In this document: positions 33,447-40,082 of the stretch, piece by piece
How the letters are laid out: each line of letters starts with the position of its first letter
Numbering within the stretch: the first letter of the stretch is position 1
NCBI RefSeq assembly: GCF_003236385.1
Contig: NZ_POUA01000022.1
Location: forward strand, 1-40,566
Reading direction: 5' to 3'
Length of the DNA: 40,566 bases
DNA from: Spongiactinospora gelatinilytica
GTDB lineage: Bacteria > Actinomycetota > Actinomycetes > Streptosporangiales > Streptosporangiaceae
Translations under genes and position numbers: made by a program
The notes under the pieces: generated by a model
The model's input: the letters and a program-made list of their open reading frames with translations, nothing else
Database searches by the model: none
What the model was told of the DNA's origin: nothing

Positions 33447-33847
33447 GCCCCTGAGACACGCCGCGGCCCGGTGTGCGGGCACGGTCGCCGGACAATGGAA
33501 TCCTGACCGTGGCTGCCTTGTGACCTGCGATGCGTACCTTGGCCTTGAAAGTCAGTAAGCGCCGTTGTGAAGCCGCACCGGCGTCTCACGCGACGCAGGC
33601 CGGGCGCTGCCGGGCACATCGGCACGCACCGGCCGCCGGGCCGGGCCCGCCATCGGATCGGTGGCGACCGGGCCAGGCTGGTTATCAGATCGGTGACAAC
33701 TGAACCGTTGCCGTACCCCGCGTCGGCGGAAGCGCACAGACTGTCGATGAGTTGTCGTGGCGTGTCCGACGGCGAACACACCGCGACCGGCCGGGCGAGC
33801 CGGCCAGAGCCGGCCAGGCACGGGCCGGCCACACTCCAAGACACCGG
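33447..33847. other. Non-coding stretch with repeats before the PAS-GGDEF-EAL gene
   Basis: No convincing gene. It contains an imperfect 17-bp direct repeat (33652-33668 and 33684-33700, 14 of 17 identical, 32 bp apart, about three helical turns) built on GATCGGTG. Near the 3' end a 10-bp unit GAGCCGGCCA is repeated exactly in tandem (33797-33816) with a related GGCCGGCCA (33823-33831). Promoter and regulator sites are likely here but no clear -35/-10 pair is visible. An in-frame TTG at 33752 could extend the next protein into this region. Confidence 0.5.
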
Positions 33848-36538
33848 ATGGGCAGGAATTTGATCCGCTGGCGAGATCCACGGTTGCCGCTCACCGCCTC
33901 CGCGGCGGTGGGTGCGGCGGGGTTGGCGGCCGCGCTGATCGCCGGCGCGTCCGCGGTCGTCGCCGGCGCGGCGGCCGGCGCCCTCGCCGCGATGTGCGCC
34001 GTGGTGTCGCTGATCGTGGCGGGCGGGCGGATCACCCCGGGACGCCGCCGTACGACGCTGGCCTGGCGGTGGCTCGCCGCGGGCGGGCTGGCCTGGCTGA
34101 TCGGCATCGGCCTGCGCCCGGTCGCCCAGGACGTCGCCTTCGCGATGGGTTTCGCTGATCTACCCGTTCTCGTGGGCACGGTGCTGCTCGCGGGCGGCGC
34201 GTGGCTGACCGCGGCGTCGCGCCCGCAGGGGCAGGCGCTGGTCCGGTACGTCACCGACGCCTACCTGTGCGCCGCGTCCCTGTTCGTGATCAGTTGGGTG
34301 GCCGTGCTCGGCCCGGTCTACCAGGAGATCGGCGACTCCTCGGCGTTCGTCGTACCGCTGCTGTCGCCGATCCTGTGCCTGGTGACCACGTGCGCGGTGG
34401 GGCCCGCGGTGGTCGCGGCCCGCGCGCCCGGCTGGGCGGTCGGGCTGGCCGGGCTGGCCGTGCTCGCCGCGATCACCGCGGGCGAGCTGGCCACCGCGGT
34501 CGCCCGGCTGGCCGGCGACGACGGCATTCCGTGGGCTCTGTGGCTGGCCCCCGCCGGGTTCCTGCTGCTGGCCGCGACGCCATGGTGCCGCCGCCGCACG
34601 CCGTCGCCCGGCGACGAGCGGACCGACGACGGCGACGACGGCGTCCGCGCCACCACCGGCCCGGTGGTGGCCGGGCTGATCGCCGGGGCCCCGCTGGCGC
34701 TGGTCGCGCTGGCCACCGGTTTCGTGCTGTCCGACGTGATCCGCGGCGGGGCGACCGCCCCGGTGCCGATGATCTCCGCGGTCATCGCCTCGGTGGTGCT
34801 GGTCATGCTGGTCCGGCTGTTCGTGCTGCTGGCCGAGGGCGCGCGGCTGCGCCGTCTGGTCGCGCTGGGCGACCGCCAGTTGCGCGAGCTGGCCGCGAGC
34901 ACCGGCGACATCGTGCTGCTGTGCGACCACGAGGGCGTGCTGCACGAGGTCTGCGACGAGGTCGAGAGCGTGTACGGCTACCGCCCCGGCGACCTGGTCG
35001 GCGGCTCGATCTTCGACTACATCCACCCCGAGGACGTCCCTGGCCTGCGCACCGCGCTGCACGACATGGACCTCGACGACGACGCCCCCGAACAGGGCAC
35101 CACCTGCGTGATCGCCTGCCGGGTCCGCGCGGCCGACGGCACCTGGCGGCCGACGGAGGCCGTCGCCACCCGCCACCTGCGCGGCGAGGACCTGCTGCTG
35201 ATCAGCGCCCGCGACATCACCGACCAGGAGGCGCTGCGCAACCAGGTCGCGCACCTGACCTTCCACGACGGCGTGACCGGGCTGCCCAACCGGGCCTACT
35301 TCGAAGAGCGCACCCGCGAGGTGCTGGCCGGCCGGGCGGCCGGCTGCTCGGTGATCTTCCTGGATCTCGACGGCTTCACCGCGGTCAACGACTCGGTGGG
35401 GCACGCCAGCGGCGACTACCTGCTCGCGCAGGCCGCGCGTCGGCTGCGCTCGGCCGTACGCTCCGACGACACGCTGGCCCGCTGGGGCGGCGACGAGTTC
35501 GCGGTGCTCGTCGAGTCGCCGATCGAGGCCAAGGCGGTGGTGGACCTCGCCGAACGGCTGGTGCGGGCGGTGTCGCAGGAGCCGTTCCGGGTGGCCGACC
35601 GCGACATCGCGCTGACCGCGAGCGTGGGGGTGGCCTTCGCCGAGGACGGCGTACCGGCCGGCGACCTGATCCGCAACGCCGACGTGGCGATGGCCAGGTC
35701 CAAGGAGCAGGGCGGGCGACGGGTCGAGGTGTTCGCCGCGCACATGCACGCCGACGTGGTCCGCCGCCTGGAGCTGGCCGCCGACCTGCAACGGGCGCTG
35801 CTGGACCGGCAGTTCGCGGTGGAGTTCCAGCCGATCGTGGACCTCGCGACCTCCCGGGTGACCGCGGTCGAGGCGCTGGTCCGCTGGTGGCGGGGCAGCG
35901 CGTTCGTCCCGCCGCACGAGTTCCTGGGCCCGGCCGAGGACACCGGGCTGATCGTGCCGCTCAGCGAGTGGATACTGCGCGAGTCGTGCCGCGAGGTGGC
36001 CGCCTGGCGGGCCTCGTCCTGGGACATCGGCCTGTCAGTGAACCTCTCCGCGCGCCAGATCACCGCGCCGCGCTTCGTGGAGACCGTCGCCGAGGCGCTG
36101 GCCGAGAGCGGGCTGCCGCCGAGCGCGCTGACCCTTGAGGTCATCGAGGAGATGCTGGTGGAGGACGCCGAGGAGACCATCACCCGGCTGTCGGAGCTGC
36201 GCAACCTCGGCGTACGGCTGGCCATCGACGACTTCGGCACCGGCTACGCCTCGCTGGCGTTCCTGCGCCAGCTCCCGGTGGACATGATCAAGATCGACCC
36301 GTCGTTCGTGTCCGGGCTCGGCCGCGACGAGACGCTGAGCCTGCTGACCCGCACGATCGTGCGGCTCGGCCACGACCTCGGCCTGATCGTGGTCGCCGAA
36401 GGCATCGAGCGGCCCGAGCAACTGGAGCTGCTGCGCGAGATGGGCTGCACCCGCGGGCAGGGCTATCTGGTGGCCCGGCCGATGGCCGCCCGGGGCGTCG
36501 ACACGCTGATGCGCACCAGCCTGCAGAGCACCGCCTGA
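33848..36538 (+). CDS. Membrane PAS-GGDEF-EAL cyclic-di-GMP enzyme
   Basis: 896 residues from ATG 33848. About nine membrane segments (1-330) are followed by a PAS domain (~340-460), a GGDEF domain with intact WGGDEF (~547-551) and RxxD I-site (RSDD, five residues before), and an EAL domain with true EAL (VEALVRWW, ~675), NLSARQ, DDFGTGYAS (~794), IKIDPSFV and AEGIERPEQ. Both synthesis and hydrolysis sites look active; the PAS domain or membrane part probably decides which. Position just before ilvB matches S. coelicolor SCO5511, as I recall. The start is uncertain: no ribosome site is seen, and an in-frame TTG at 33752 would add an Arg/Pro-rich stretch. It is the second such enzyme in the window. 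Confidence 0.9.
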   Translation: MGRNLIRWRDPRLPLTASAAVGAAGLAAALIAGASAVVAGAAAGALAAMCAVVSLIVAGGRITPGRRRTTLAWRWLAAGGLAWLIGIGLRPVAQDVAFAMGFADLPVLVGTVLLAGGAWLTAASRPQGQALVRYVTDAYLCAASLFVISWVAVLGPVYQEIGDSSAFVVPLLSPILCLVTTCAVGPAVVAARAPGWAVGLAGLAVLAAITAGELATAVARLAGDDGIPWALWLAPAGFLLLAATPWCRRRTPSPGDERTDDGDDGVRATTGPVVAGLIAGAPLALVALATGFVLSDVIRGGATAPVPMISAVIASVVLVMLVRLFVLLAEGARLRRLVALGDRQLRELAASTGDIVLLCDHEGVLHEVCDEVESVYGYRPGDLVGGSIFDYIHPEDVPGLRTALHDMDLDDDAPEQGTTCVIACRVRAADGTWRPTEAVATRHLRGEDLLLISARDITDQEALRNQVAHLTFHDGVTGLPNRAYFEERTREVLAGRAAGCSVIFLDLDGFTAVNDSVGHASGDYLLAQAARRLRSAVRSDDTLARWGGDEFAVLVESPIEAKAVVDLAERLVRAVSQEPFRVADRDIALTASVGVAFAEDGVPAGDLIRNADVAMARSKEQGGRRVEVFAAHMHADVVRRLELAADLQRALLDRQFAVEFQPIVDLATSRVTAVEALVRWWRGSAFVPPHEFLGPAEDTGLIVPLSEWILRESCREVAAWRASSWDIGLSVNLSARQITAPRFVETVAEALAESGLPPSALTLEVIEEMLVEDAEETITRLSELRNLGVRLAIDDFGTGYASLAFLRQLPVDMIKIDPSFVSGLGRDETLSLLTRTIVRLGHDLGLIVVAEGIERPEQLELLREMGCTRGQGYLVARPMAARGVDTLMRTSLQSTA

Positions 36539-36577: not shown

Positions 36578-36608
36578 TTGACATTCTGGCCGCTGGAGCG
36601 GCTATGGT
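36578..36608 (+). promoter_or_regulatory. ilv operon promoter
   Basis: TTGACA (36578-36583), a perfect -35, and TATGGT (36603-36608), a good -10, are separated by 19 bp. The leader-peptide ATG at 36616 is 7 nt past the -10, so the RNA is expected to begin at or near the ATG. Confidence 0.75.
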
Positions 36609-36615
36609 AGATGCC

Positions 36616-36666
36616 ATGCTCCGCAGGGACATTCTCGTAGTACTTCGCTGGCGCGCAGGCCACTAG
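36616..36666 (+). CDS. ilv leader peptide (attenuator)
   Basis: 16 codons encode MLRRDILVVLRWRAGH and end at TAG 36664-36666. Five consecutive codons, Ile-Leu-Val-Val-Leu (36631-36645), are branched-chain amino acids, the regulated products. It has no ribosome site and lies 7 nt past the -10, so it is probably a leaderless reading frame. Ribosome stalling at the Ile-Leu-Val-Val-Leu run when these charged tRNAs are scarce would alter folding of the RNA downstream. Similar leaders precede ilvB in other actinobacteria. Confidence 0.85.
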   Translation: MLRRDILVVLRWRAGH

Positions 36667-36689
36667 CGAAGCACTTCGACCTGCGCGCC
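36650..36689 (+). promoter_or_regulatory. Attenuator pause hairpin (1:2 stem)
   Basis: GGCGCGCAGG (36650-36659) and CCTGCGCGCC (36680-36689) form a perfect 10-bp stem, with an internal 5-bp hairpin CGAAG/CTTCG (36667-36671 with 36674-36678). The left arm lies within the last leader-peptide codons. A ribosome stalled at codons 36631-36645 would cover or approach it and free the right arm, which abuts the terminator. Confidence 0.7.
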
Positions 36690-36728
36690 GCCCCAGCGCC
36701 GCCGACTTCGGCGGGCGGGGCGTTTTTT
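36689..36728 (+). terminator. ilv attenuator terminator
   Basis: A classic intrinsic terminator: CCGCCGA/TCGGCGG stem (36699-36705 with 36708-36714), an interior loop, an outer CGCCCC/GGGGCG stem (36689-36694 with 36717-36722) and a six-T run (36723-36728). It is the only strong hairpin with a T-run that I see in the window. Its left edge touches the pause hairpin, as expected for mutually exclusive folding. The exact antiterminator pairing was not resolved by eye. Confidence 0.85.
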
Positions 36729-36776
36729 ATGTGACGAGACAGCTCATGCCCGCTCAGCCACGCAAGGAACGAGCCG

Positions 36777-38522
36777 ATGACCGAACGGATGACAGGTGCG
36801 CAGGCACTCGTGAGAGCGCTGGAGCACGTCGGGGTCGACACGGTGTTCGGGATCCCTGGCGGCGCGGTCCTCCCCGCCTACGATCCACTCTACGACTCGA
36901 CCAAGGTCCGGCATGTGCTCGTGCGTCACGAGCAGGGCGCCGGGCACGCGGCCGAGGGATACGCGCAGGCGACCGGCAAGGTCGGCGTCTGCATGGCGAC
37001 GAGTGGACCGGGGGCGACGAACCTGGTCACGCCGATCGCCGACGCGTACATGGACTCAGTGCCGATCGTGGCGATCACCGGCCAGGTGGCCGCGCCGCTG
37101 ATCGGTACCGACGCCTTCCAGGAAGCCGACATCTCCGGCATCACCATGCCGATCACCAAGCACAACTTCCTGGTCACCGAGGCCGGTGACATCGCCCGCA
37201 CGATCGCCGAGGCGTTCCACATCGCCTCCACCGGCCGCCCCGGGCCTGTCCTCGTGGACGTCTCCAAGGACGCGCTCCAGGCCATGACGTCCTTCTCCTG
37301 GCCGCCGACGCTGCAACTGCCGGGCTATCGGCCGGTGACCCGGCCGCACTCCAAGCAGATCCGCGAGGCCGCCCGGCTGATGGCCGAGTCCAAGCGCCCG
37401 GTCCTCTACGTCGGCGGCGGCGTCCACAAGGCGCGCGCGGCGGCAGAGCTGCTCCGGCTGGCCGAGCTGACCGGCATCCCGGTCATCACCACGCTGATGG
37501 CCAGGGGCACCTTCCCCGACAGCCACCCCCAGCACCTCGGCATGCCCGGCATGCACGGCAGCGTGGCGGCGGTGGGATCGCTCCAGCGCAGCGACCTGGT
37601 CATCGCCCTGGGCACCCGCTTCGACGACCGGGTGACCGGCCGGCTGGACAGCTTCGCCCCGCACGCCAAGATCGTCCATGCCGACATCGACCCGGCGGAG
37701 ATCTCCAAGAACCGGCACGCCGACGTCCCGATCGTGGGCGACTGCCGCGAGGTGATCACCGAGCTGATCAACGCCGTGGAGAACGAGCACCGCGAGGGCC
37801 GCCGAGGCGACTACAGCGCCTGGTGGACACAGCTCAACGGCTACAAGACGACCTACGCCCTCGGCTATGACGAGCCGGGCGAGGGTGAGCTGGCCCCGCA
37901 GTACGTCATGGAACGGCTGAGCGCGCTGGTCGGCCCGGACGCCTACTACGTCGCGGGCGTCGGCCAGCACCAGATGTGGGCCGCGCAGTTCATCGGCTAC
38001 GAAAAGCCCGGATCGTTCATCAACTCCGGGGGCGCGGGCACGATGGGCTTCGCCGTCCCGGCCGCGATGGGCGCCAAGATGGGCCGCCCGGACTCCGCCG
38101 TGTGGGCCGTCGACGGCGACGGCTGTTTCCAGATGACCAATCAGGAGCTCGCCACCTGCGCCCTGGAGGGCGTGCCGATCAAGGTCGCCGTGATCAACAA
38201 CGGCAACCTCGGCATGGTCCGCCAGTGGCAGACGCTGTTCTACAACCAGCGCTACTCCAACACGAACCTGCAGGCCGTCAAGCGGATTCCGGACTTCGTG
38301 AAGCTCGCGGAGGCGTACGGTTGTGTCGGCCTGCGCTGTGAGCGGGCCGAGGACGTCGACGCCACCATCAAGAAGGCGATGGAGATCAACGACGTGCCCG
38401 TCGTGATCGACTTCGTGGTGCACGAGGACGCCATGGTCTGGCCCATGGTGGCCGCGGGCACCAGCAACGACGACATTCAGGTGGCCCGGGACATGGCGCC
38501 CGTCTGGGACGCGGAGGAATAG
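36777..38522 (+). CDS. ilvB: Acetolactate synthase large subunit
   Basis: 581 residues, normal for the catalytic subunit. It shows the ThDP-site glutamate region [21 protein letters not shown], the SGPGATN loop, the FAD region (TRFDDRVTG) and the ThDP-Mg motif [29 protein letters not shown]. It condenses two pyruvates to acetolactate, or pyruvate with 2-ketobutyrate, the first step of valine, leucine and isoleucine synthesis. ATG 36777 is preceded by AAGGAA. Expression is controlled by the attenuator 36578-36728. ilvN follows after 4 bp. Confidence 0.97.
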
Positions 38523-38526
38523 CGAT

Positions 38527-40082
<1,556 letters not shown>

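Follow-up and report, generated by a model that had tools for sequence, protein, structure and literature searches.

The window analysed here, a 40,566-nucleotide stretch of Spongiactinospora gelatinilytica DNA, is part of an 8.05-Mb draft genome in 957 contigs and has a G+C content of 67-75% (2-kb steps). Its forward strand carries ilvB, encoding the large subunit of acetolactate synthase (36777..38522; NCBIfam NF005860, 1120.6 bits), ilvN, encoding the small subunit (38527..39051; NCBIfam NF008864, 234.1 bits), and ilvC, encoding ketol-acid reductoisomerase (39078..40082; Pfam KARI_N and KARI_C, start codon picked by eye). Among the best 80 named IlvB loci listed, the closest include two from Actinomadura, at 79-80%. 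A Shine-Dalgarno-like AAGGA, noted by eye, precedes ilvB (36764..36768, +). On the other side, a gene for a PAS-GGDEF-EAL protein (33752-36538, +) ends 39 bases 5' of the -35 element described below, placing the operon promoter in a very short gap.

An initial annotation, made from the letters alone, had proposed a complete ilvB attenuator in this region, and its identity as an ilvB attenuator is supported, with the ilvB gene confirmed by NF005860. The -35 element is the perfect TTGACA that had been claimed (36578..36583, +), followed after a 19-nt spacer by the -10 element TATGGT (36603..36608, +), which has four of six consensus bases. A gap of 7 nt then leads to the ATG at 36616 of a 16-codon leader ORF, MLRRDILVVLRWRAGH (36616..36666, +; stop UAG at 36664-36666), and this peptide does contain five consecutive Ile/Leu/Val codons, AUU CUC GUA GUA CUU (36631..36645, +), recognized from the sequence and from family comparison. 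The transcript is predicted to start at the leader ATG or one base 5' of it (36615..36616, +), judging from the -10 spacing and from mapped orthologous leaders. A promoter-scan program reported no promoter at 36578-36608, because it is limited to spacers of 16-18 nt and the actual spacer is 19 nt. On both strands of the window, TTGAC placed 33-40 nt before a short ORF containing five or more consecutive I/L/V codons occurs once, and the same pattern was absent from all 100 first-order Markov windows generated; the promoter-plus-leader arrangement at 36578-36728 is not due to chance.

Three hairpins follow. H1, the protector hairpin (36643..36671, +), pairs CUUCGCU (36643-36649) with AGCGAAG (36665-36671) and was identified from family covariation and the folding model. 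H2, putatively licensed by ribosome stalling (36650..36689, +), has the 10-bp arms GGCGCGCAGG and CCTGCGCGCC (36650-36659 with 36680-36689) and was identified from the sequence and phylum comparison. The terminator hairpin T (36689..36722, +), found by folding and a terminator scan, pairs GCCCC (36690-36694) with GGGGC (36717-36721), with an optional C36689-G36722 pair, and runs into six U (36723..36728, +), the U-run terminator that had been annotated. All elements from the -35 through the U-run thus lie within 151 nt, in agreement with the roughly 150 bp first given. The 115-nt leader fold has a z-score of -4.28, and its best fold without a ribosome contains H1 rather than the 10-bp hairpin H2, the two being mutually exclusive as nested helices. 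An outer helix of the minimum free energy fold, CGCAGG/CCUGCG (36622-36627 with 36680-36685), was rejected, since 450 of 500 shuffles reach its score in the family alignment. Rfam 15 gave no matches in the window at gathering score, and its sub-threshold matches were rejected as evidence (best 25 bits, with 50 needed).

Promoter geometry and sensor codons in related leaders

Leaders were collected under a rule that called for a TTGAC box, exact or nearly so, 33-40 nt upstream of an ORF of 7-36 residues with at least three consecutive I/L/V residues and a U-run downstream. The best 80 named IlvB loci gave 51 leaders; among the other 29, three had a leader but no U-run was found, some had short upstream sequence, and one locus (L004) was left out as its leader has no TTGAC box. 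A search of 150 genomes of the family matched 88, our own included (some weakly, over the terminator part only), and 67 of the 70 loci taken from it gave a leader and three none. The resulting set of 118 consists of related leaders with some redundancy; one of them (L082) is the window's own and another (L083) its identical sister. Under the same TTGAC, I/L/V and U-run rule, no leader was found at 13 IlvB loci that we take to belong to Microbacteriaceae, nor at either bifidobacterial locus. In six family leaders (L108, L110, L118, L121, L124 and L125) the ORF is lengthened in frame by roughly 30 nt, a segment that looks partly self-complementary by eye, and the sensor run is only VVL or VVVL.

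The position of the promoter relative to the leader is strongly conserved. A TTGAC-type box lies 35-38 nt 5' of the leader start (ATG in 96, GTG in 22) in all 118 leaders (33-40 nt searched), exact in 115 and with one base changed in L040, L062 and L081. Defining a -10-like hexamer by its second base, A, and its sixth, T, we found it to end 6 nt (62), 7 nt (42) or 8 nt (6) before the start codon in the 110 distinct upstream regions, compared to gaps scattered over 3-11 nt in shuffled sequences. In these regions the -35/-10 spacer varies from 16 to 19 nt, in contrast to the fixed gap between the -10 and the start codon. Similar geometry was seen at ilvB loci retrieved with R1, a covariance model that spans the sensor codons to the U-run and includes no promoter: TTGAC was present at 35-38 nt in 43 of 48 loci (30-45 allowed) and the -10 gap was 6-8 nt in 39 of those 43, where the start nearest 36.5 nt was chosen if several fitted and where some loci are perhaps close to the model-building set. 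As for the five misses, L233 and L236 have, by eye, an ATG or GTG at 36 nt from TTGAC, L180 and L221 are short loci at which the search fell inside ilvB, and at L177 no TTGAC was seen.

These spacings bear out the leaderless geometry and fit the annotated placement of the transcript start at the ATG, and the window's ilvB leader is very probably leaderless. RNA-seq start mapping showed the orthologous ilv leader of S. lividans to be leaderless, and likewise its leu, trp, met and thr leaders, according to excerpts of PMC8079986; the orthologous ilvB leader of C. diphtheriae is leaderless by its mapped 5' end (PMC5784534, in part), and in C. glutamicum the transcript start is placed one nucleotide from the leader start codon (PMC11857589, in part). 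With leaderless ilv leaders mapped in S. lividans and C. diphtheriae (excerpts of PMC8079986 and PMC5784534), there is no support for calling such initiation an unusual input to attenuation, as the initial annotation did. A transcript beginning further upstream, with a ribosome site for the leader, would suit the imperfect -10, the long spacer and the silent promoter scan. However, there is no space for a ribosome site between the well-conserved promoter and the ATG, and with a gap of 6-8 nt in all 110 distinct upstream regions and orthologues mapped as leaderless, we regard such a start as very improbable.

The sensor codons are conserved in an uneven manner. Of the 60 distinct family leaders, 59 have an in-frame GUA GUA CUU, the exception (L129) reading GUA CUC GUA CUU, while the first two codons differ in some clades, giving IRVVL, IEVVL, IQVVL or VVL alone. 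The last three of the five codons therefore look essential in the window's family. L098-L101 and L104-L106 have a codon for Arg, Gln or Glu in second place, as though GUA GUA CUU alone counted. For codon choice, we compared the runs of 81 distinct leader starts with three ORFs in the window, those of ilvB and ilvN and that at 33752-36538 (with its listed start). GUA makes up 4 of 174 Val codons (2%) in these genes and 125 of 159 (79%) in leader runs, CUU 2 of 174 Leu codons (1%) and 69 of 142 (49%), respectively, whereas CUG, with 122 of 174 Leu codons in the genes, appears only once among 142 in the runs. This enrichment of rare GUA and CUU codons in leader runs is new from the comparison.

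Conserved hairpins and the proposed attenuation switch

A terminator was found in 116 of the 118 leaders, with none found in the other two. H2 with GCGC-type arms could be anchored in 112 of these 116 and not in the remaining four. Its GCGC core begins 5 nt past the sensor run in 105 of the 112, and its 3' arm ends between -3 and +3 nt from the terminator in 111 (-4 to +6 allowed). A second count, with no upstream limit, other anchor words and at most 3 nt into T, again gave -3 to +3 nt in 111 of the 116, the five others being without any H2 anchor word. The loop between the anchors varies from 16 to 56 nt. The distance from core to stop is also variable, and in six leaders the final base of the stop codon is already the first of the core, which argues that the arm is kept as RNA and not as peptide. 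A function for the RRAG tail of the peptide was rejected, as the arm persists outside the ORF in those six leaders.

Covariation across related ilvB leaders, named as a check in the initial annotation, was found. In an alignment of 48 of the 51 distinct phylum leaders (A2; L008, L053 and L140 excluded, L060 misaligned), H2 and the terminator scored 0.250 versus 0.130 when shuffled, and none of 500 shuffles did as well. Both bases had changed in three of the eight H2 pairs, and one H2 position showed six pair types. The first three inner pairs of H2 were all formed in 72 of 112 leaders (shuffles, mean 32.9, maximum 45), with inner positions 1, 2 and 4 pairing above every shuffle and positions 3, 5 and 6 not. 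Within the window's family, variation in H2 was uninformative, with seven of ten pairs invariant. H1 was scored in 48 of the 60 distinct family leaders (A1; long or shifted leaders excluded) and reached 0.114 versus 0.062 when shuffled (0 of 500 shuffles), with three pairs changed on both sides, a number also seen in 213 of 500 shuffles. It is uneven, in that two of its seven pairs are frequently open, one in 22 of 48 rows and the other in 18 of 26.

We modelled the ribosome as a 26-nt mask on the leader RNA under equilibrium folding. With no ribosome, the pair probability of H1 was 0.98 and that of H2 was 0. Stalling at AUU, CUC or the first GUA raised H2 to 0.985-0.997, stalling at the second GUA left five of its ten pairs, and at the last sensor codon, CUU, the ribosome itself blocked H2. 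At the stop codon H2 was masked and neither hairpin formed. The H1 and H2 states thus follow, across ribosome positions, the order that an attenuator needs. T had a pair probability of 0.994-0.998 in every modelled state, and of 0.997-0.998 with H2 formed, and therefore no switch is shown by equilibrium folding. A base-pair-exclusive antiterminator was not found, H2 and T coexisting in the folding model, and the word "complete" in the initial annotation was in this sense overstated.

Our combined findings make it highly probable that ilvBNC is controlled by a leaderless, ribosome-mediated transcription attenuator, in which H2, formed upon stalling, would antagonise T. The transcript would begin at the leader ATG, with the ribosome loading on the bare 5' end. 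When branched-chain amino acids are plentiful, the ribosome would reach the stop codon and cover the 5' arm of H2, and T would end transcription. A shortage of charged Val, Leu or Ile tRNA would make the ribosome stall at AUU CUC GUA GUA, opening H1, whose 5' arm would then be inside the ribosome, and freeing the 5' arm of H2 just ahead; H2 would fold next to T and lower termination. Without a ribosome, H1 would form, H2 would be blocked and T would act by default. The action of H2 against T is the weakest step, one that we infer. Since H2 and T barely overlap, it would be steric or kinetic rather than a competition for base pairs, the two helices perhaps being unable to close together at the RNA exit channel. 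Clusters of hairpins are said, in the portion of PMC8355165 available, to promote termination, which counts against antitermination by H2.

It is also conceivable, if distinctly less probable, that H2 takes bases from the foot of the terminator, in the manner of the C. glutamicum "fast attenuator", with the overlap acting as the switch. A mutational study in that species favours such competition (PMC11857589, in part), as do leaders such as L034 and L038, two mycobacterial leaders in which H2 runs into the C-tract of the terminator. In the window, however, H2 overlaps T by one base pair (C36689), or by two should a G-U form, and among 51 distinct flank pairs an overlap of at least 2 was found in 13, against a shuffled mean of 10.8, with 85 of 1000 shuffles reaching 13. 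The number of paired T bases in these 51 distinct leaders averaged 2.88, compared to 3.27 (range 2.73-3.88) with swapped flanks. The overlap as a phylum rule thus has no support, and the contact between H2 and T is what is conserved.

Somewhat less likely again is the role given to H2 in the initial annotation, that of a pause hairpin, here one that would hold RNA polymerase in the 5' arm of the terminator until the ribosome comes, with antitermination arising elsewhere. The end of H2 adjoins the terminator and equilibrium folding allows both, and pausing has been proposed for a C. glutamicum leader of this type, though for H1 (PMC11857589, in part). Yet H1 outcompetes H2 without a ribosome, which is unexpected for a pause hairpin, and no other recurrent pairing that excludes the terminator was seen among the pairings examined. 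Thus, the annotated 10-bp pairing is present but the pause role is not borne out, H2 being placed to form only upon ribosome stalling. That the leader is read by a protein or another signal instead of a ribosome appears unlikely. Changes to candidate codons in S. coelicolor are reported to be without effect on ilvB regulation, according to excerpts of PMC1262725; nonetheless, in M. tuberculosis the change of LVVI to AAAA abolished induction and codon mutants lost regulation (excerpts of PMC13236596), and the extreme choice of rare codons and the fixed spacing from run to arm argue for the ribosome. A steric or kinetic action of H2, licensed by a stalled ribosome, is the reading we prefer.

Relation to known attenuators

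The classical enterobacterial trp-type attenuator has a leader with a Shine-Dalgarno sequence and a 2:3 hairpin that excludes 3:4. The window has in common with it coupled translation of a leader, sensor codons and an intrinsic terminator, but neither a Shine-Dalgarno leader nor the 2:3 exclusion. As in actinobacterial ilvB leader-peptide attenuators, a short ORF with an I/L/V run lies 5' of ilvB with an intrinsic terminator between them, whereas the exclusive antiterminator of the classical kind was not found in the window, with H2 and T coexisting and the overlap not above chance in relatives.

The switch is of a kind already known in related bacteria, and its probable leaderless start is not new. 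In S. lividans, the ilvL leader MRTRILVLGKRVG before ilvBHC is leaderless by mapping, as predicted for the window, and shares a short run of branched-chain residues, hairpins, a U-rich stretch and the same operon, with 13 residues and ILVL compared to 16 and ILVVL in the window (excerpts of PMC8079986) and a longer H2 loop. The Streptomyces leaders of our survey have H2 abutting T as in the window. The Corynebacterium ilvB leader, or ilvB-II motif, is similarly a leader rich in branched-chain residues, usually of 15-17 residues, with leaderless starts in C. diphtheriae and C. glutamicum (excerpts of PMC10272879, PMC11857589 and PMC5784534). In the ilvB-II motif the antiterminator joins the loop of P1 to the right shoulder of P2; the pairing scored in our leaders was the overlap between H2 and the 5' arm of T. 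The C. glutamicum attenuator also consists of three hairpins, a protector, a middle hairpin and a terminator, and H2 corresponds by its place to the antiterminator proposed there (PMC11857589, in part). That middle hairpin is reported to take GCC at the terminator foot and the overlap is given as a hallmark, in contrast to about one base pair in the window (PMC11857589, in part). The ilvB1 leader of M. tuberculosis shares an LVVI leader, GUA as a regulatory codon, a short terminated transcript and loss of regulation in codon mutants, but antiterminator and terminator are described there as mutually exclusive, unlike H2 and T in the window (excerpts of PMC13236596).

Distribution and a second leader before cimA

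R1 matched 35 of 40 genomes of the class at E <= 0.05, our own included, and the match lay beside ilvB in 34 of the 40 (tblastn against fetched loci). Four weak matches in the class are left out of the counts: G472 C25, the second matches in G172 and G447, and the second in G454 (L250), whose stretch has neither ilvB nor cimA. In a sample of 296 genomes of the phylum, 30 matched at E <= 0.01 under stricter filters, our own included. Nine of the 30 came from other classes, five of them beside ilvB (L175, L177, L178, L180 and L181) and four not; the sensitivity of R1 outside the class is low, so that absence there means little. L175, L178 and L181, all before ilvB, have a GCGC-type arm and a TTGAC at 37-38 nt from the leader start. 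These three leaders suggest that the attenuator may be old within the phylum.

Within the S. gelatinilytica genome itself, a second R1 match (35.5 bits, E 2.3e-4) lies upstream of cimA, identified as citramalate synthase (TIGR00977, 586.7 bits, cut-off 450). A third (L154; E 0.06, no U-run) was rejected. The cimA leader attenuator (G000:C643:16585-16755, minus strand; L184, L153) repeats the layout before ilvB, with the leader MKNGLLIIGRRAGT, which has an LLII run, followed by 5 nt, a GCGCG core, 1 nt and the terminator. Both the spacing of 5 and the gap of 1 were found in 30 of 30 family loci, the best 30 of 133 genomes. The leader DNA matches 133 of 150 family genomes, our own included and weak rows counted, and R1 matches beside cimA in 10 of the 40 class genomes, again with our own. 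A TGTGGCA-ACT word, perhaps a -10 region or operator, recurs where the cimA leader starts or immediately 5' of it (L184, L243). Among the open-licence PMC papers listed, no description of a cimA attenuator was found, and in the excerpts available a 2005 survey notes no conserved structure in other pathways (PMC1262725).

We tentatively suggest that an actinobacterial antiterminator for branched-chain amino acids may share no bases with its terminator, and that a hairpin licensed by stalling within about 3 nt of the foot of T might block its closing sterically or kinetically, the same device being used twice, before ilvB and before cimA. The missing overlap of H2 and T and the cimA copy are what lend interest to this locus, which adds a further actinomycete operon to those under probable leaderless attenuation. 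The parts that are kept are the promoter-to-start gap, the rare GUA and CUU codons, the 5-nt spacing to GCGC and the contact of hairpin and terminator. That the overlap is not conserved bears on the regulation of ilvB in Streptomyces, a point called unclear in 2005 (excerpts of PMC1262725). Through the predicted cimA leader, isoleucine synthesis via the citramalate route would come under the same control.
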